Assembly: GCF_014647915.1 (NCBI RefSeq)
Contig: NZ_BMQC01000006.1
Location: 62,001-126,000 of the forward strand
DNA length: 64,000 nt
DNA from: Pilimelia terevasa
GTDB taxonomy: Bacteria > Actinomycetota > Actinomycetes > Mycobacteriales > Micromonosporaceae
Direction of reading: 5' to 3'
The notes under the pieces are model-generated. The model was not told where the DNA came from. It saw only the letters and a list, made by a program, of their open reading frames with translations, and searched no databases. Made by a program: the position numbers and the translations under genes. Of this stretch, positions 25,823 through 32,289 are shown piece by piece. How positions within the stretch are numbered: the stretch's first letter is position 1; each line of letters opens with the position of its first letter.

Positions 25823-25852
25823 GTGACATCGGGGCGCAGTCTCGGATAAAGT
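25823..25852 (+). promoter_or_regulatory. Candidate promoter of the EACC1-caspase-SIR2 operon
   Basis: GTGACA at 25823-25828 (5 of 6 to TTGACA) is followed by an 18-base spacer and TAAAGT at 25847-25852 (4 of 6 to TATAAT). The predicted start near 25859 would give a leader of about 30 bases carrying GGGGAGGA before the ATG at 25891. It is a housekeeping-sigma-type promoter by sequence only. Confidence 0.55.
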
Positions 25853-25890
25853 CGCTCACCGCACCCGGCCAGCGCGGGGAGGACCGCCGG

Positions 25891-26229
25891 ATGGACATCC
25901 ACGTACATACCGACGGCGGCATCGACGCCGCCCTCGACCTGGCCCACTGGATCGCCGCCGACCCCGGCGTCCCGCCGGAGGCGTCGCCGGTGCCCGCGGC
26001 GCCCGCCCCCGGCAGCATGTCCGCGACCACCGACGTCCTCCAGTTCGCCGTCGGCAACGCCATCGCGCTCGGCGCGCTGCTGGTCTCCGTCGCCCAGTGG
26101 CGGCAGTCGCGGCCGGTCCGGCCGACGGTCCGGCTCACCGCGGTGCGGCCCGACGGCGCCAGCGTGACGGTCGAGTCCGACGACCCCGCCACGCTCGCCG
26201 CCGCCGTGCGCGAGCTGGGCGGCACCTGA
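25891..26229 (+). CDS. EACC1-like small membrane protein (effector-associated constant component)
   Basis: A 112-residue protein. A Pro/Ala linker precedes a single transmembrane helix (LQFAVGNAIALGALLVSVAQW). A short cytosolic strand-rich part follows: PTVRLTAVRPDGASVTVESDD then AAAVRELGG. This layout is that of EACC1, a family found next to caspase-like genes in predicted actinobacterial conflict systems; the neighbour here is indeed a caspase, 4 bp downstream. The family label is from memory of the pattern, not from a search. It may anchor or hold effectors inactive at the membrane. GGGGAGGA precedes the ATG. Confidence 0.7.
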   Translation: MDIHVHTDGGIDAALDLAHWIAADPGVPPEASPVPAAPAPGSMSATTDVLQFAVGNAIALGALLVSVAQWRQSRPVRPTVRLTAVRPDGASVTVESDDPATLAAAVRELGGT

Positions 26230-26233
26230 CCCG

Positions 26234-27481
26234 ATGGCCCGGCTCGCCGATCCGAGCGCGTCGCGGGCGGTGCTCATCGGCACCGCCCGCTACGACCACC
26301 TCCCCGCCCTGCCCGCGGTCGCCGGCAACCTCGACGGCGTGGGCGGGGCGCTGCGCGACCCGCTGCTGTGGGGCCTGCCCGCCGACAACTGCCGGCTGCT
26401 GCTCGACCCGGTGACCCCGCGCGAGGTCGACATCGCCCTGTCCGAGGCCGCCGGGGCCGTGCGGCCGGGCGGCCTGCTGCTGGTGTACTTCGCCGGGCAC
26501 GGGCTGGTCGACGTGGACAGTCGGGACCTGTTCCTGGCGCTGCGCGACACGGTCCCGACCGCGATGCACGCCACGGCGGTGCCCTACGACTGGGTCCGGC
26601 GCAACGTGCGCCGCAGCGCGGCCGACCGCCGCGTGGTGATCCTGGACTGCTGCTACGCCGGCCGGGCCGAGATGTCCGCGCCGCACACCGGGTCGGCGAT
26701 GCTCGCCGACAAGGCCCGGATCGACAAGAGCTGCCTGCTCGTGGCCGCGGCCGCCACCGAGGCGGCGCGGGCACCGGCGGGCGAGCCGTTCACCGCGTTC
26801 ACCGGCGCGCTCGTCGGGCTGCTGCGCGCCGGGCTGCCCGGCGGACCGCGGCTGCTGGACGTCAAGACGATCTGGGAGACACTGCGCGACCGGCTGCTCA
26901 ACGCCGGGTACCCCCGGCCGGAGGTCCGCGCGCGCAACTCCGGCGACGACATCCCGCTGGTCCGCAACGCCGCCCTGCACAGCCACGACCTGGCCGGCCG
27001 GGTGCTCGTCGCCGCCCCCCACGTGACCGGGCCGGACCTGCGCGAGGCGGTTCTGCTGATCCTGCGCTACGACCCCGAGTGCGGCGCGGTCGCCGTCCGC
27101 CTCAACCAGCCCACCGCCCAGCCGGCCGCCGCCGTGGCCGGCCACTGGGAGCACCTGCTCAGCGACCCCCCGGTCGTCTTCGACGGCGGCCCGGTGCACA
27201 CCCCCGGGTACCTGGCACTGGCCCAGCTACGGCCCGACGCCGCCGCGCCGACGCGGTTCACGCCGGTCGCCGGGCGGCTCGGCACGCTGGCGCTGTCCGC
27301 CGACCCCAGCGATATGGACAGCTACATCGGGGACCTGCGGCTGTGCGCCGGCTACCTCGGCTGGGGACCCGGCGAGCTGGAGTCCGACTTGGAGTCGGGC
27401 CTGCTGCACGTCGTCGAGGAGGCGCCCGACGCCCCGTTCTCCCCCCGGCCCGGCGAACTCTGGCACGAGTTGCAGACGTAG
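26234..27481 (+). CDS. Caspase-like peptidase fused to a YqgE/AlgH (DUF179) domain
   Basis: A 415-residue two-domain protein. Residues 10-245 are a C14-type caspase domain: RAVLIGTARYDHLPALPAV, catalytic His89 in VYFAGHG and catalytic Cys140 in VILDCCYAG. Residues 251-415 match YqgE/AlgH: LAGRVLVAAPHVTGPDLREAVLLI, AVAVRLNQP, VFDGGPV and GYLGWGPGELESDL. The first domain should cleave proteins at basic or acidic sites; the second is a small alpha/beta domain of unknown biochemical role and may sense or bind partners. It lies between the EACC1-like gene (4 bp) and the SIR2 gene (3 bp), so the three are one operon. Confidence 0.88.
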   Translation: MARLADPSASRAVLIGTARYDHLPALPAVAGNLDGVGGALRDPLLWGLPADNCRLLLDPVTPREVDIALSEAAGAVRPGGLLLVYFAGHGLVDVDSRDLFLALRDTVPTAMHATAVPYDWVRRNVRRSAADRRVVILDCCYAGRAEMSAPHTGSAMLADKARIDKSCLLVAAAATEAARAPAGEPFTAFTGALVGLLRAGLPGGPRLLDVKTIWETLRDRLLNAGYPRPEVRARNSGDDIPLVRNAALHSHDLAGRVLVAAPHVTGPDLREAVLLILRYDPECGAVAVRLNQPTAQPAAAVAGHWEHLLSDPPVVFDGGPVHTPGYLALAQLRPDAAAPTRFTPVAGRLGTLALSADPSDMDSYIGDLRLCAGYLGWGPGELESDLESGLLHVVEEAPDAPFSPRPGELWHELQT

Positions 27482-27484
27482 CCC

Positions 27485-29578
27485 ATGAGCACCCCACCGA
27501 CCGGAGCCGGCTCGTACGCGCTGGTGGACCACCTCGCCCACGCCGTCCGGCGCGGCGAGCACCTGACGCTGCTCGTGGGCGCGGGAATCAGCGTGCCCGC
27601 CGTCCCCGGCGTCGCCGACATGCTCGCCCTCGCCGACGACTACGCCGAGGGCCGCGACGACCTGGAGGAGCTGACCGGCGCGCTGGCCCAGGCCCGCGCG
27701 GCCGGCGACGCCCCGGGTGCGGTGTACCGGGCGTACCACCAGGCCTTCGCGAGCTGGATCGCCGGCAGCGAGTTCGACGTGGTGGCGCAGGAGGCCGTCC
27801 TGCACGCCTACCAGCCCAGCGTGCGCGCGCACTCCGCCCTGGCCACCCACGGCGTCTGGCAGCGGCTGGACAACCGCATCGGCGAGCGCCTGGAAGCCGA
27901 CCTGGACGCCTGGCGGATCCCGGACGGCGTCGCCGCGCTCGGCCGGCTGCTCGCCCGGCGGCCCGCGCAGTTCGGCAACCGGCTGCTGACCACGAACTTC
28001 GACCCGCTGGTGGAGATCGCCATCCGCCGGGCCGGCGGCCGGGCCAGCCCGCTGACCCTGACCGAGGAGGGGACGGCGCCCACGCCGCTGCTGGCCGCGG
28101 ACGCCGTGCGGATCTTCCACCTGCACGGGTACTGGCGCCCCGTCCGCCCGGCCGAGCGGCGCGGGATGCTGCACGACCCGCACCGGCTGCGGGGGGCGGG
28201 CGCCGGCCACTCGGCGGCGCTGGCCCGGCTGCTGCGCGGCGACACGGTCTGCGTGGTCGGGTACGGCGGCGCGGACGACGCGTTCCTGCGCGCGCTGCGC
28301 CAGGTCAGCCACCGGGCCACCGTGGTGTGGGCGCTGCACGAGGCCGACCCGGCGCTCGCGCAGGCGCAGCGCGACCGGCTGACCGCCGCGCTGACCGACC
28401 ACCGCAGCCCGCTGGTGTTCGGCGACGTCGCCGCCGACCTGCTGTTCCCCGCGCTCGCCGACCGGCTCGGGGTGCCGGCCCAGCCGCGGATCCCGCGGAC
28501 GCGGCGCCGGTACCGGCAGCGCGGCTGGGAGCGGGAGCTGGTCTCCGAGCCGACCAACACCCCGCCGGCCGGCGCCCGGGACCTGCTGGAGCAGTTGGAC
28601 CGCCGCTTCGGCTGGGAGTTCCACCAGCCGCCGGACACGCCGCCGGTCGCGCCGGGGCTGCTGTACTGGCCGATCCGGCTGCGGGAGAGCGCGTCGCTGA
28701 TCCACGCCGTGCAGGCGCTCGCCGCCGCCGCGCTGTCGGCGCGCGGGGTGCCGGTGACGGTGTGCCTGGACGACTTCGGCGTCACCCAGCGTTACCGGTA
28801 CACCCACCGGTTCACCGCCGACCTGCGCCGCTGGTTCGCCCTGGTGCCCGACGCGGCGCCCCCGCAGATCGTGTCGCTGCAGGACTTCGTGGAGCGGCAC
28901 GACGTCGTCGCCGACCCGAGCGCCCTGCTGCGCCCGGTCCGGCCGTGGGCGGTGGCGCAGGAGGCGTACGGCGAGCGCAACCCGTCCCTGTACAGCGTGC
29001 TGGTCGCCACCAAGGTGCTGCCCGACGTCCCCGTCGAGCGGCTGATCGACGCCGGCCCGGCGGTCGTGCAGGCGCTGCTGGCCACCAACGCGCGCCGGCT
29101 GCTCACCCCGCTGACCGTGTGGGCGCACCTGAACCACCTGCTCCTGGACCGGCCGAGCCATGCGGTGATCACGCTCAGTGGCCAGGACGAGCGGCCGTTC
29201 TGGCAGTTGTGGCGGGAGGTGTTCGACTACGACCTGCACCAGTTGTGCAATCCCCGGGCGGAGAGCCTCAGCAACGACTCGCTGATGCTGCGCTGGACCG
29301 AACCGGACGAACTGGCCGACCACCTCACCCGGGCGCACGCGCTGCCGGACTGGGACGCCCACGGCGGGTACCTGCACTGGCTGGTCCAGCACGCCGTGCT
29401 GCTGCCGCTGTACCTGACGGCCCACCAGACCCCGACGATCGGGCAGCACCGGCTGGACTGCTGGGCGTCGGTGCGCGAGGCGGTGCGCGAGGACCCCGCG
29501 GCACTACGGACCGTGGCCGAGCGGGTCTCGCGCCTGTACCTGCCCGCCTCGCCCGGCGACGGGCCGGCGCGACCCTGA
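27485..29578 (+). CDS. SIR2-domain protein with large unknown C-terminal region
   Basis: A 697-residue protein. The N-terminal half (about 20-330) is SIR2-like: LLVGAGIS (32-36 region), TTNFDPLVE (Asn171, Asp173), HLHG with catalytic-type His214, and VCVVGYGGADDAFL. Defence-type SIR2 domains hydrolyse NAD+. Residues 330-697 match nothing I recognise. A stretch near 393-450 (YWPIRLRE, ALSARGVPVTVCLDDFG) loosely recalls a HUP/aminoacyl-tRNA-synthetase-like nucleotide fold; this is speculative. It starts 3 bp after the caspase stop and ends 45 bp before the next gene. Confidence 0.85.
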   Translation: MSTPPTGAGSYALVDHLAHAVRRGEHLTLLVGAGISVPAVPGVADMLALADDYAEGRDDLEELTGALAQARAAGDAPGAVYRAYHQAFASWIAGSEFDVVAQEAVLHAYQPSVRAHSALATHGVWQRLDNRIGERLEADLDAWRIPDGVAALGRLLARRPAQFGNRLLTTNFDPLVEIAIRRAGGRASPLTLTEEGTAPTPLLAADAVRIFHLHGYWRPVRPAERRGMLHDPHRLRGAGAGHSAALARLLRGDTVCVVGYGGADDAFLRALRQVSHRATVVWALHEADPALAQAQRDRLTAALTDHRSPLVFGDVAADLLFPALADRLGVPAQPRIPRTRRRYRQRGWERELVSEPTNTPPAGARDLLEQLDRRFGWEFHQPPDTPPVAPGLLYWPIRLRESASLIHAVQALAAAALSARGVPVTVCLDDFGVTQRYRYTHRFTADLRRWFALVPDAAPPQIVSLQDFVERHDVVADPSALLRPVRPWAVAQEAYGERNPSLYSVLVATKVLPDVPVERLIDAGPAVVQALLATNARRLLTPLTVWAHLNHLLLDRPSHAVITLSGQDERPFWQLWREVFDYDLHQLCNPRAESLSNDSLMLRWTEPDELADHLTRAHALPDWDAHGGYLHWLVQHAVLLPLYLTAHQTPTIGQHRLDCWASVREAVREDPAALRTVAERVSRLYLPASPGDGPARP

Positions 29579-29623: not shown

Positions 29624-30130
29624 ATGACGATCAGCGCGGAAGTTCCGGCGTTCCCCGGCGCCGCGCCGGACGGCATCGGGGTGCGCGAGCCCGACACCAG
29701 CCGGCACCCCATCCCCGGCGAGGAGGCGGTCACCGACGGTCACGCCTCGGCGGTCGCGTTCGACCACGCGGTGGAGGTCATCGACGACCTGGGCACCGCG
29801 CTGGCCGAGACCAGCGAGTGGCTGGGCACCCCGCTGGCGACGTACGTCAGCGGCGCGGCGGGCACGGCCGAGCTGTCCGGCTGGATCGAGTCGGGGCCGG
29901 CGGTCGCCGCCAGCAAGGAGGCGCTGGCGCGCCTGCAGACCGCCGTCGAGGTGATCGACATCTTCGCGGCCGTCAACCGCCCGACCGACGCGAAGGCGTG
30001 GCTGCGCGAGGTGTCCACCGAGACCGTCGGGCGCAGCCCGGCGCAGCTACTGCGGTACGCCCGGCATGAGCGGCTCCTGGGCCAGATCCGGCACGCCGCC
30101 ACCCGGCACGCCCACGACACCCGGGACTGA
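29624..30130 (+). CDS. HTH plus MbcA/ParS/Xre-like (DUF2384-like) protein
   Basis: A 168-residue protein. After a disordered N-terminus comes a helix-turn-helix-like stretch (LGTPLATYVSGAAGTAELSGWIESG). The C-terminal part has ARLQTAVEVIDIFAAV, AKAWLREVS and GRSPAQLLRYARHERLLGQI, the spacing of the DUF2384 toxin-binding domain (WL then G-R-x-P-x-x-L-L). Such proteins neutralise RES-type toxins or act as transcription regulators. No RES toxin gene is near; the SIR2 protein 45 bp upstream is the obvious candidate partner. The family call is by pattern. Confidence 0.6.
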   Translation: MTISAEVPAFPGAAPDGIGVREPDTSRHPIPGEEAVTDGHASAVAFDHAVEVIDDLGTALAETSEWLGTPLATYVSGAAGTAELSGWIESGPAVAASKEALARLQTAVEVIDIFAAVNRPTDAKAWLREVSTETVGRSPAQLLRYARHERLLGQIRHAATRHAHDTRD

Positions 30131-30275
30131 CCGGACCGGCACCGCCTCCCGCCGACGACCCCGCCCGGTGGCACGGGGTGGGGATTTCCCCGATGTTCGG
30201 TGCGCGCCCCGGCGACGAGGGTGGACCGCACGGCCGCTGCCCGCGGCCGGGTCGACACACCCCCAGGGGAGACAG

Positions 30276-30767
30276 ATGAACACCACGCTCCGGTCGGCGC
30301 TGGCCGCCGCCGGCACCGCCGTCCTCACCGGCACCGCCGTCCTCGCCGGAGGGGCCGCGCCGGCGCTCGCCGGCCCCACCTACACCTACGACGTCACCGT
30401 CCGGACGGGCGACCGGGAGAACGCCGGGACCAGTGCCGGCGTGTTCCTGACCCTCTACGGCGACGACGACCGCAGCGCCGAGATCCGGCTCGACAACGAG
30501 GGCCACGACGACTTCGAGCGCGGGCAGACCGACCGGTTCCGGGTCAGGACGCCGGTGCGGCTCGGCCGGCTGCTGACGGTGCGGATCCGGCACGACGACC
30601 GCGGCAAGAAGCCCGGCTGGTACCTGGAGCACATCCGGGTGGACCGGGCCGGCGAGGACAATGACGCCCGGTTCGCGTTCCACCGCTGGCTGGCCAGGGG
30701 CCAGGCCGACAACGCCATCTGCCTGCTCCAGCACCGGCGCCCCGGCGAGCCCACCCCCTGCCCCTGA
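30276..30767 (+). CDS. Secreted PLAT/LH2 domain protein
   Basis: A 163-residue protein with a Sec signal peptide (MNTTLRSALAAAGTAVL, cleavage near ALA-GP). It is followed by a PLAT beta-sandwich: TYDVTVRTGDRENAGTSAGV, FLTLYGDDDRS, then RIRHDDRGKKPGWYLEHIRVD with the conserved W-x-L/V-E pattern. The Asp-rich loop may bind calcium. PLAT domains mediate membrane or protein contact. AGGGGA precedes the ATG. The gene is monocistronic and convergent with the radical SAM gene. Confidence 0.85.
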   Translation: MNTTLRSALAAAGTAVLTGTAVLAGGAAPALAGPTYTYDVTVRTGDRENAGTSAGVFLTLYGDDDRSAEIRLDNEGHDDFERGQTDRFRVRTPVRLGRLLTVRIRHDDRGKKPGWYLEHIRVDRAGEDNDARFAFHRWLARGQADNAICLLQHRRPGEPTPCP

Positions 30768-30795: not shown

Positions 30796-32022
30796 TCAGC
30801 CCGCCGGCACGGGGGTGAGCGGGCCGTTGAGGTAGCGGCTGGCGTGACCCGGCCAGTCGACGCAGGCGTCGAGCCGCTGGCGCATCCGGGCGGGGTCGGG
30901 GCGCTGGTCCGGGGTCCAGACCACCTGCTTGCCCGGCCCGTCGGCCCGCTGCACGCAGAGCTGGCCGCGGGAGTCGATCAGCAGGACCGACCGCGGGGCG
31001 GAGTGGGTACCGGTCACCCGGATGTCCAGCGGCAGGCCGGCGGCGACACACTCGGCGACCAGCTCGCGCAGCCGGTCGAGGACGTCCGGCCCGGGCAGCA
31101 CGGCGGGCCGGCGCTCGGCCTTGCCGGCGGGGACCGCGGCGTGCAGCACCCAGTACCGCACGCCGCGGTCCAGCAGGTCGTCGCGGAGCCGGCGCAGCGC
31201 GTCGCCGTCCTCGTTGTGCCGCCCGACCACCGTCTGCACGCTGCACGGCACGTCCGCCTCGGCGAGCCGCCGCAGCGTGGCGTGGGCGGCGTCGAACGCG
31301 CTGGTACCGCGCGGCAGGTAGCGGGTGTTGATCGGGCGCGCGCGGTCGTGCACCCGGCGGTCGGCGCTGTCCACCGACACCCGCACGTGCGCGCCCGCCC
31401 GGCGCAGGGCGGGCAGCAGCGGGTCGACGTCCCCCGCCCCCGAGGTGTCCAGCACCACCCGCTTGTGCCGGCTGAGCCGGTCGATGAGCTGCGCCGCCCG
31501 GACCGGCGCGACGATCGGGTCGCCGCCGGTGACGACCGCGACCAGGGCCGGGATCAGCGTGGCGGTGCGGTCCACGGCGTCGACCTCGCGGGCGCGCTCG
31601 GTGTCCCGGTACGGGATCATCAGGTCGTCGGCGTGGCAGTAGACGCAGCGCAGCGGGCAGTGGGCCGTGCTGAAGCAGTTGACCAGCAGCGGCCGGGTCA
31701 GCGGCGGCAGCTCGCCGAGCCGGCCGAGGACCGAGCGGCCCTGGTTCGGCCGCGGCGGCGTCGGCGGGTCCGTGACGCAGATCCCGAGCGCGGCCAGCGC
31801 CCGCACCCGGGCCGCCTCGGCGGCGCGGACCGGGCGGGCGCCGACGGCCAGCCGGCGCAGCAGGTCGGCGTGCGCGCGGTCCAGGGCGAAGAAGTCGTCG
31901 CGGCGGCCGACGTAGGCCACCGCGCCGAAGGACTCGAAGCGGACGGTGGTGTCCACGCTGCGGGCGGCCGTCGCGGCGACCGGGGTCCGGGCGCGCACGC
32001 GCGGGGCCGGGCGGCTGATCAC
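30796..32022 (-). CDS. Radical SAM enzyme, no SPASM domain, coupled to a small peptide gene
   Basis: A 408-residue protein. The iron-sulfur motif CPLRCVYC supplies Cys122, Cys126 and Cys129 (CxxxCxxC). VVTGGDPI is the SAM-binding GGE-type motif, with Asp in place of Glu. An N-terminal region of about 80 residues (VRFESFGAVAYVGRRDDFFALD, then a helical part) resembles small peptide-recognition modules of RiPP maturases. Only three scattered C-terminal Cys exist, so a SPASM auxiliary cluster is unlikely. The chosen start is GTG 32022, which overlaps the stop of the 49-codon gene. A longer upstream frame translates into an Arg/Pro-rich sequence without coding character. Confidence 0.85.
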   Translation of the reverse strand: MISRPAPRVRARTPVAATAARSVDTTVRFESFGAVAYVGRRDDFFALDRAHADLLRRLAVGARPVRAAEAARVRALAALGICVTDPPTPPRPNQGRSVLGRLGELPPLTRPLLVNCFSTAHCPLRCVYCHADDLMIPYRDTERAREVDAVDRTATLIPALVAVVTGGDPIVAPVRAAQLIDRLSRHKRVVLDTSGAGDVDPLLPALRRAGAHVRVSVDSADRRVHDRARPINTRYLPRGTSAFDAAHATLRRLAEADVPCSVQTVVGRHNEDGDALRRLRDDLLDRGVRYWVLHAAVPAGKAERRPAVLPGPDVLDRLRELVAECVAAGLPLDIRVTGTHSAPRSVLLIDSRGQLCVQRADGPGKQVVWTPDQRPDPARMRQRLDACVDWPGHASRYLNGPLTPVPAG

Positions 32023-32168
32023 CCCGGGCACGGGCGCCCGCCCCGCGGACGGCGGATCGACCTGCCGGGGCGGCCCGACGGGACCGACGGCAGCGCGTCG
32101 GGGTCGCCCGGCCTGCGGGCGCGGACCGACCGTGGAGCATCGGTCGCGGCGTGCGGGTGGATCGCCAT
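32019..32168 (-). CDS. 49-residue peptide, candidate RiPP precursor
   Basis: A small frame (ATG 32168, TGA 32019) encoding a basic, Pro/Arg-rich peptide that begins MAIHPHAATDAPRS and ends RPRGGRPCPG. GAAGG lies about seven bases before the ATG. Its TGA overlaps the GTG of the radical SAM enzyme (GTGA), which argues for a real gene. Third codon positions are about 90% G/C. The single Cys, two Ser and the Gly-Gly near the end are possible modification or cleavage sites. There is no known family match. Confidence 0.55.
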   Translation of the reverse strand: MAIHPHAATDAPRSVRARRPGDPDALPSVPSGRPGRSIRRPRGGRPCPG

Positions 32169-32289
32169 GTGTGAGCCTTCGTCGGTGTTGCCGGCCGTCA
32201 GTCCCGACAGTGTGCCGGCGACGCGGGCGCAGGCCGGTCGGCGGACCCGATTTCGCGCTACCGCGCACAATCGCCCCAGGACGTAACGA

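Follow-up and report, generated by a model that had tools for sequence, protein, structure and literature searches.

The window analysed here, a stretch of 64,000 nucleotides of Pilimelia terevasa DNA, contains an open frame at 26234..27481 on the forward strand that codes for a 415-aa protein in which a caspase domain is fused to an AlgH (DUF179, YqgE) domain. The fusion gene is preceded on the same strand by a gene for an EACC1 protein of 114 aa with one predicted membrane helix (25885..26229), and followed by genes for a 697-aa SIR2-like protein with a C-terminal tyrosyl-tRNA-synthetase-like (TyrRS-like) domain (27485..29578, starting three bases after the stop of the fusion gene) and for a 168-aa MbcA/Xre/ParS antitoxin-like protein, ORF168 (29624..30130). 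A gene coding for a radical SAM protein (30796..32268) lies convergently on the reverse strand.

The caspase domain of the fusion protein (residues 10-245; 26261..26968) contains His89 (codon 26498-26500) within an AGHG motif and Cys140 (codon 26651-26653) within DCCYAG, and is recognized by the Pfam family Peptidase_C14 over residues 11-201 (E 9e-6, 26 bits against a cut-off of 21.4) and by the NCBIfam model NF047832, "caspase, EACC1-associated type", over residues 10-222 (E 2e-66, 223.5 bits against 140). The AlgH/DUF179 domain (residues 250-415; 26981..27478) contains VFDGGPV and GYLGWGPGELE and matches PF02622 over residues 262-413 (E 5.3e-15, 56.2 bits against a cut-off of 27). In an AlphaFold2 model of the fusion protein (mean pLDDT 86.1, pTM 0.65; 35-row alignment), residues 250-415 match the AlgH-family structure 2hrx (Z 22.1, rmsd 1.9 Å, 165 aligned residues, 26% identity), whereas residues 3-244 match the MALT1 paracaspase (3uo8_B, Z 22.8) and residues 9-245 the plant metacaspase-4 (6w8s_A, Z 22.7). 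A sequence-only reading of the window had claimed a caspase (residues 10-245, with His89 and Cys140) fused to YqgE/AlgH (residues 251-415); the Pfam and NCBIfam matches and the predicted structure, in which the latter part does adopt the AlgH fold, confirm this claim. Its proposal that AlgH might regulate or sense during proteolytic cell death is a plausible conjecture. None of the 34 aligned fusion rows that cover His89, Asp138 and Cys140 departs from these residues; Asp138, two residues before Cys140, presumably occupies the position which helps MALT1 and metacaspases to select basic residues.

The open reading frame 25885-26229 ends four bases before the start of the fusion gene and is the sole EACC1 match in the Pilimelia genome (PF19953, E 7.9e-23, 80.9 bits against a cut-off of 23.6). 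Its predicted membrane helix corresponds to a hydrophobic stretch of 19 residues with a mean Kyte-Doolittle value of 1.99. A promoter scan yielded one weak site at 25823-25852 ahead of the EACC1 gene (9 of 12 matches, 0.1 expected), on which no claim rests. In the two-gene conflict system that passages of Kaur et al. (2020, PMC7159879) describe as "System 4", EACC1 sits in the membrane and is paired with a caspase whose C-terminal domain varies; as many as 50 kinds of domain fill this position and are proposed to be deployed by self-cleavage, sensing is assigned to EACC1, the C-terminal slot is treated as the effector, and the counter-invader role of the systems is a prediction. The gene pair in the window likewise combines a 5' EACC1 gene, whose product has a membrane helix, with a 3' gene for an N-terminal EACC1-type caspase that has the His/Cys pair and carries an extra domain in the variable C-terminal position. 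Because the preceding gene encodes EACC1, the frame 26234-27481 is, as judged by sequence, a member of the EACC1-caspase two-gene systems, with AlgH in the variable slot. It differs from the system as portrayed in those passages (Kaur et al. 2020) by the AlgH nature of the C-terminal domain and by the fixed downstream SIR2-TyrRS-like and MbcA-like genes. The terms AlgH, DUF179, YqgE and SIR2 each have 0 occurrences in the main text of Kaur et al. 2020 (PMC7159879), and the first three are also absent from the 2021 follow-up (PMC8195603), as far as its passages show. The literature found on EACC1-caspase systems was computational as far as its passages show, with no experimental work among it, and no paper joining YqgE with a caspase was found.

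Related caspases with other C-termini were also encountered. A Streptomyces fulvoviolaceus caspase (L025, 5950-7896) carries a phytase-like esterase (PF13449, 1.6e-54) in the place of AlgH and has no DUF179; an EACC1-profile match lies just upstream of it. The caspases of L059 and L062 have no Pfam domain beyond the caspase, and no DUF179 either. The L059 protein (genome G187), whose match extends to residue 331, had been considered as a possible counter-example and was rejected, the one DUF179 of this genome being located elsewhere.

In the 697-aa protein, a SIR2 NADase-like domain (residues 8-339; 27506..28501) with the motifs GAGIS, TTNFD and HLHG precedes the TyrRS-like domain (residues 361-694; 28565..29566). 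SIR2_2 (PF13289) matches 30 of the 30 aligned family members. In the predicted model of the protein (pLDDT 83.7, pTM 0.61), the SIR2 domain resembles SPARSA (8y80_E, Z 20.4) and ThsA (8btp_A, Z 19.1), while a sequence profile of the SIR2 part, compared with solved structures, has FAM118B as its nearest relative (3.1e-6), followed by SPARSA (0.0012). KomBC (9v0g_E) was among the Foldseek matches of the 697-aa protein (2.6e-6, aligned part not given). N171 and H214, which we take to be the catalytic residues, are both present in the window protein and are found in 29 and 27, respectively, of the 30 aligned rows; L056 lacks both, and L057 and L058 have Asn at the position of H214. The altered rows suggest that NADase activity may not be universal, some copies possibly being inactive or catalyzing another chemistry. 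Compared with the SIR2 NADases ThsA (Thoeris), SPARSA and KomBC, the protein shares the SIR2 fold and motifs, as taken here from the predicted model and the sequence, but it has a TyrRS-like C-terminal domain, and its partners are a caspase and an MbcA-like protein.

Structurally, the modelled C-terminal domain comes closest to tyrosyl-tRNA synthetases (2cyb_A, Z 20.4, rmsd 3.3 over 279 residues, 12% identity; best Foldseek value 2.8e-7); model confidence falls to 63-79 at about residues 471-540. While the predicted fold is common to the catalytic domain of tyrosyl-tRNA synthetases over about 280 residues, identity is low, homology at the sequence level is not significant, and neither HIGH nor KMSKS was seen by eye in a 22-row alignment of the domain. 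Comparison by hhalign with a five-sequence TyrRS profile gave P 0.03 (shuffled columns 0.59; three other profiles 0.18 to 0.6); with TrpRS the value was 0.22, while the unrelated fusion profile got 0.074, and with TyrRS and TrpRS taken together it was 0.12 (controls 0.16 to 0.31). No synthetase was matched by sequence in the PDB or in Pfam. The predicted relationship to TyrRS thus rests on the fold of the model, and sequence methods give no confirmation. Nevertheless, the domain appears to be under constraint, because ten of its residues (W395, P396, L399, R400, Q410, D430, R483, P484, W488 and Y495) are identical in 30 of 30 members. No relative of the domain occurred in viral contigs, and a search of 149 genomes of the phylum recovered only the Pilimelia genome at 1e-8; the class sample contained two partial relatives, in G463 and G368. 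In G463 (L206, 6957-9746), a SIR2_2 domain is fused to a STAND NTPase (nSTAND_NTPase5, 5.5e-34), making this protein a relative of the SIR2 part only. No paper pairing SIR2 with tyrosyl-tRNA synthetase, NADase and defense was found.

The two domains of the 697-aa protein are joined by a basic linker (residues 326-356; 28460..28552), which we regard as a candidate cleavage region for its richness in arginine and lysine. It is the richest 20-residue R/K stretch of the SIR2 family (21.6%, median 10.1%), with stretch 67-87 reaching 20.3%, and it includes residues 337-342, which are of low confidence in the model. Basicity is weak in L053, L054 and L056 (2 R/K), and the linker has no fixed motif. 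The caspase domain has stretches more basic than the linker, of up to 31.6% (residues 119-136), so that high basicity is no rarity in these proteins.

When a profile of the antitoxin-like family was compared with the PDB, MbcA (6fkg_C) ranked first with an E value of 1.4e-4, and an Xre antitoxin second with 0.74. The underlying alignment (A1) held 25 of the 27 rows then available, with N-termini trimmed; six more members were found later by profile. PF09722 is matched by 4 of the 25 members (best 5.7e-6), whereas the window's own protein remains below the cut-off (12.8 against 24.5 bits). MbcA is normally paired with RES toxins. No RES domain was matched in the seven window proteins scanned or in the 30 SIR2 members. 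The family thus resembles the Xre/MbcA/ParS antitoxins of MbcTA and RES-Xre type II toxin-antitoxin systems in its profile match to MbcA, but differs from them in adjoining a SIR2 gene with no RES toxin seen, and in its variable N-terminal part. As far as the openings of abstracts show, no paper deals with a SIR2 and MbcA pair. PADLOC returned weak matches only.

The radical SAM protein (PF04055, E 2.2e-13), in which the CxxxCxxC motif is kept, is a frequent partner of the operon. Its gene was found in 21 of 200 Micromonosporaceae genomes, 20 of which carry the operon, the other being G185; it lies inside the fetched stretch in 18 of 34 loci. In several other loci (e.g., L034 and L043), the ends of the antitoxin-like and radical SAM genes are within some 20 bases of each other. 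In the window, a gene for a PLAT/LH2-domain protein (30066-30767, forward strand; PF01477, 5.8e-23) with a secretion signal apparent by eye stands between the two. In L053 and L054, which are both without a detected EACC1 gene, a distant relative of the radical SAM gene (291 bits) lies on the strand of the operon; elsewhere, it is convergent. G185 (L205, 4296-9198) encodes a 1284-aa protein comprising a weak TCAD9 match (25 bits, cut-off 40), a SIR2 domain and a TyrRS-like region, with a gene for a radical SAM relative coming next; there is no second DUF179 in this genome, and so no caspase-AlgH fusion. In G368 (L207, 5469-7927), a TyrRS-like region occurs with weak helix-turn-helix matches and no SIR2 match, and a radical SAM relative follows on the same strand, the stop-to-stop frames overlapping. 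Since the TyrRS-like domain and the radical SAM protein travel together in G185 and G368, these two loci suggest that the latter serves the former.

The search for other C14-DUF179 fusions, which had been recommended by the sequence-only reading, detected the caspase-AlgH fusion in 35 of 200 Micromonosporaceae genomes (that of Pilimelia included), representing 8 of the 44 sampled genera. A chance or misassembled fusion is ruled out by this recurrence. In line with the earlier remark that DUF179 proteins are usually stand-alone, 198 of the 200 genomes had a DUF179 match and only 36 had two, namely the 35 fusion genomes and G135, both copies of which lie in 217-aa frames. With a profile of the SIR2 protein, strong matches (E no worse than 1.9e-228) came from precisely the 35 fusion genomes, and one extra distant relative from G185 (3.1e-31). 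The SIR2 gene directly follows the fusion gene in 34 of 34 readable loci; in G088, the locus ends inside the fusion, which is cut by a contig end, and in G042 the fusion is split over two contigs. EACC1 was found by profile in 32 of the 35 genomes, not being detected in L049, L053 and L054, and an antitoxin-like gene is present in 33 of the 34 readable loci. The order EACC1, fusion, SIR2, antitoxin-like is maintained, mostly with short gaps or overlaps. In genus g30, 13 of 36 sampled genomes have the fusion, and none has it without the SIR2 gene or the reverse. Many of the matches in the same 200 genomes cover the caspase only, whereas the SIR2 gene occurs in 35. Because caspase-only matches abound while the genomes with the SIR2 gene are the 35 fusion genomes, the SIR2 gene tracks the AlgH domain and not such caspases in general, this being a co-occurrence within related genomes. 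Locus L047 (G052, 1553-2906) is the only readable fusion locus without an antitoxin-like gene, other small ORFs occupying the gap.

Outside the Micromonosporaceae, no fusion was seen among 394 genomes of the class (three of them from the own family). At E 1e-40, the fusion profile picked out 31 of these genomes, and all matches but that of the Pilimelia genome end by model position 267, i.e., cover the caspase only. A further contig search yielded one full fusion, in Planosporangium flavigriseum (L024), itself a member of the Micromonosporaceae, and one caspase-only match (L025). Among plasmids, 34 records match the fusion, none covering 80% of the query, and 7 records match the SIR2 protein, in the SIR2 part only. 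As to the alignments, A2 comprised 30 of 35 rows, A4 comprised 22 of those 30, and A5 was made of 16 of 19 core rows together with L205. Alignment A3 had 35 rows, with L024 in place of its duplicate L047 and with L060 and L051 truncated where their contigs end; L061, which holds the remaining half from the L060 genome, and L025, L059 and L062, which are without AlgH, were left out.

The Pilimelia genome contains a separate housekeeping AlgH. When 35 fused rows were placed in a tree with 51 standalone ones, the latter being part of the standalone copies found, a branch supported at 100/98.6 set the fused AlgH apart from all others, and a single fusion event is enough to account for it, as far as the tree indicates. 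The possibility of a housekeeping AlgH read through a lost stop codon is ruled out by this separate clade and by the second AlgH in the genome. Over 36 genome pairs, drawn from nine genomes with both copies, mean identity was 0.82 for the standalone AlgH, 0.49 for the fused AlgH and 0.62 for the caspase part; for the SIR2 protein it was 0.52 (28 of those pairs, both rows being present). By this measure, divergence of the fused AlgH has outpaced both that of the caspase it is attached to and that of the housekeeping copy in the same genomes; between genera, identity of the fused domain goes down to about 0.3. Its core, consisting of G284, A285, G319-P320, G373-Y374, G376-W377 and L382-E383, is retained in 35 of 35 rows. 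In contrast, several positions fixed in the 51 standalone sequences are not kept upon fusion, for example Asn in column 65 (0.31 of fused rows), Glu in column 191, Asp in column 207 and the Trp of column 197, which is Leu in 0.94 of the fused sequences; in the numbering of the window protein, positions 291, 385 and 391 are fixed in standalone AlgH and not kept across the fused rows. Since the core is kept but standalone-fixed positions have changed, the fused AlgH probably retains the fold but not the housekeeping task. The cut-off of the NCBI equivalog PRK00228 (housekeeping AlgH/YqgE) was not reached by the fusion (best 121.7 against 225 bits). Fused AlgH therefore shares with housekeeping AlgH/YqgE/UPF0301 proteins (PF02622; 2hrx, 2gs5, 2mui) the fold and the G-P and GYxGW..LE motifs, but differs in being joined to a caspase, in forming a separate clade, in its lower conservation, in several family-fixed positions, and in missing the equivalog cut-off. 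In Arabidopsis, a trap with the plastid chaperone ClpC1 caught DUF179 proteins, with DUF179-3 enriched 4.6-fold and another one only 1.3-fold, as reported in passages of PMC8889267. These data, a single plant data set, are compatible with AlgH being an adaptor near proteases.

It can be stated with high confidence that the operon comprises EACC1 and a caspase with a diverged AlgH domain, together with a SIR2/TyrRS-like partner that is constant in the genomes sampled and an MbcA-like gene that is nearly so. As to its function, we tentatively put forward, as a possible reading, that AlgH links the EACC1-triggered protease to a module of SIR2 NADase and antitoxin, and that depletion of NAD+ is set off by cleavage. 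Membrane-bound EACC1 would sense damage or infection and activate the caspase; if this protease behaves like metacaspases and MALT1, it would cut after basic residues. AlgH would act as a coupling module rather than a toxin, keeping the SIR2/antitoxin pair close to the protease, so that the caspase could cut the basic SIR2/TyrRS-like linker, the target that we prefer, and/or the antitoxin. The freed SIR2 domain would then deplete NAD+, resulting in growth arrest or death that limits phage spread in the mycelium, and the TyrRS-like domain would be a ligand- or tRNA-responsive brake on the predicted NADase. A coupling role is preferred over that of a generic sensor because the SIR2 gene is the constant partner at all readable loci, and the linker is preferred as cleavage target because it combines the most basic stretch of the SIR2 family with low-confidence residues. 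The similarity of the SIR2 fold to the defence proteins SPARSA and ThsA and the match of the antitoxin-like gene to MbcA argue for such coupling, as do the EACC1 type of the caspase, the retained gene order, and the single origin and rapid divergence of the fused AlgH. Arguing against it are the altered N171/H214 positions in three SIR2 rows, the weak linkers of three loci, the comparably basic stretches elsewhere, the lack of either EACC1 or the antitoxin-like gene at four loci, and the fact that an MbcA-like protein, whose window copy is below the Pfam cut-off, stands beside SIR2 with no RES toxin.

To our knowledge, neither toxicity nor an enzymatic activity has been described for any AlgH protein, which speaks against AlgH as the effector itself; nor does such a role agree well with the shortness of the caspase-AlgH linker, which spans roughly 10 residues in the window protein but is longer in rows such as L024 and L053, with the variability of R244 (Arg in 21 of 35 rows), with the loss from the fused form of several positions that are near-invariant in housekeeping AlgH, or with the presence of a canonical effector type, SIR2, in the operon of 35 of 35 genomes. 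The fused domain does evolve fast, as effectors do. It also occupies the C-terminal slot that passages of Kaur et al. 2020 (PMC7159879) treat as effector, and under their general EACC1 model the EACC1-triggered caspase would cut itself and free an AlgH that interferes with the cell; on balance, we consider this unlikely. The alternative that AlgH is the sensor, switching the caspase upon binding a metabolite or a host or phage protein, with EACC1 merely as an anchor, would be in keeping with the G-P (319-320), GYxGW and LE motifs in all 35 fused rows, and with the capture of plant DUF179 alongside ClpC1 described in passages of PMC8889267, AlgH possibly reading proteostasis. Yet it leaves the constant pairing of SIR2 and AlgH unexplained, positions 291, 385 and 391 are not kept across the fused rows as they are in standalone AlgH, and sensing is given to EACC1 in the passages of Kaur et al. 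2020 (PMC7159879), so that a sensor AlgH seems improbable to us.

We likewise give little credence to a proteolysis-controlled toxin-antitoxin system in which the SIR2-TyrRS-like protein is the toxin, the MbcA-like antitoxin is destroyed by the caspase, and AlgH only stabilizes the fold. The MbcA-like gene stands right after SIR2 in all but one of the readable loci, and the profile match to MbcA fits this scheme, but the antitoxin-like proteins vary in length, by eye their alignment reveals no common cleavage site, and L047 manages without the gene. That the genes are mere neighbours through shared descent, not acting together, is very improbable: although the operon was found in one bacterial family only in our samples, whose related genomes are not independent, the order is kept over the 8 genera despite the low identity of the fused AlgH, and in the patchy distribution within genus g30, fusion and SIR2 are either both there or both missing. 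Extending the coupling reading, the operon might constitute an undescribed protease-gated toxin-antitoxin defence system, in which AlgH docking and a cleavage switch act on a SIR2 NADase braked by the TyrRS-like domain and the MbcA-like antitoxin, with the radical SAM protein as a frequent modifier; this full scheme is doubtful as yet.

EACC1-caspase systems as such have been described before; new is the AlgH variant with its constant SIR2/TyrRS-like partner. The conserved cluster looks like a cell-suicide or defence circuit. Since the fixed partner is predicted to hydrolyse NAD+, which can be assayed, and both an antitoxin and a protease substrate are predicted as well, the idea that the caspase activates an effector can be tested directly, and the operon offers a handle on the widespread AlgH/DUF179 family as well as on the predicted TyrRS-like domain joined to SIR2. 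If the proposal is true, AlgH/DUF179 would gain a defined molecular role as a docking domain, and caspase, toxin-antitoxin and NAD-depletion immunity would be combined within one operon.
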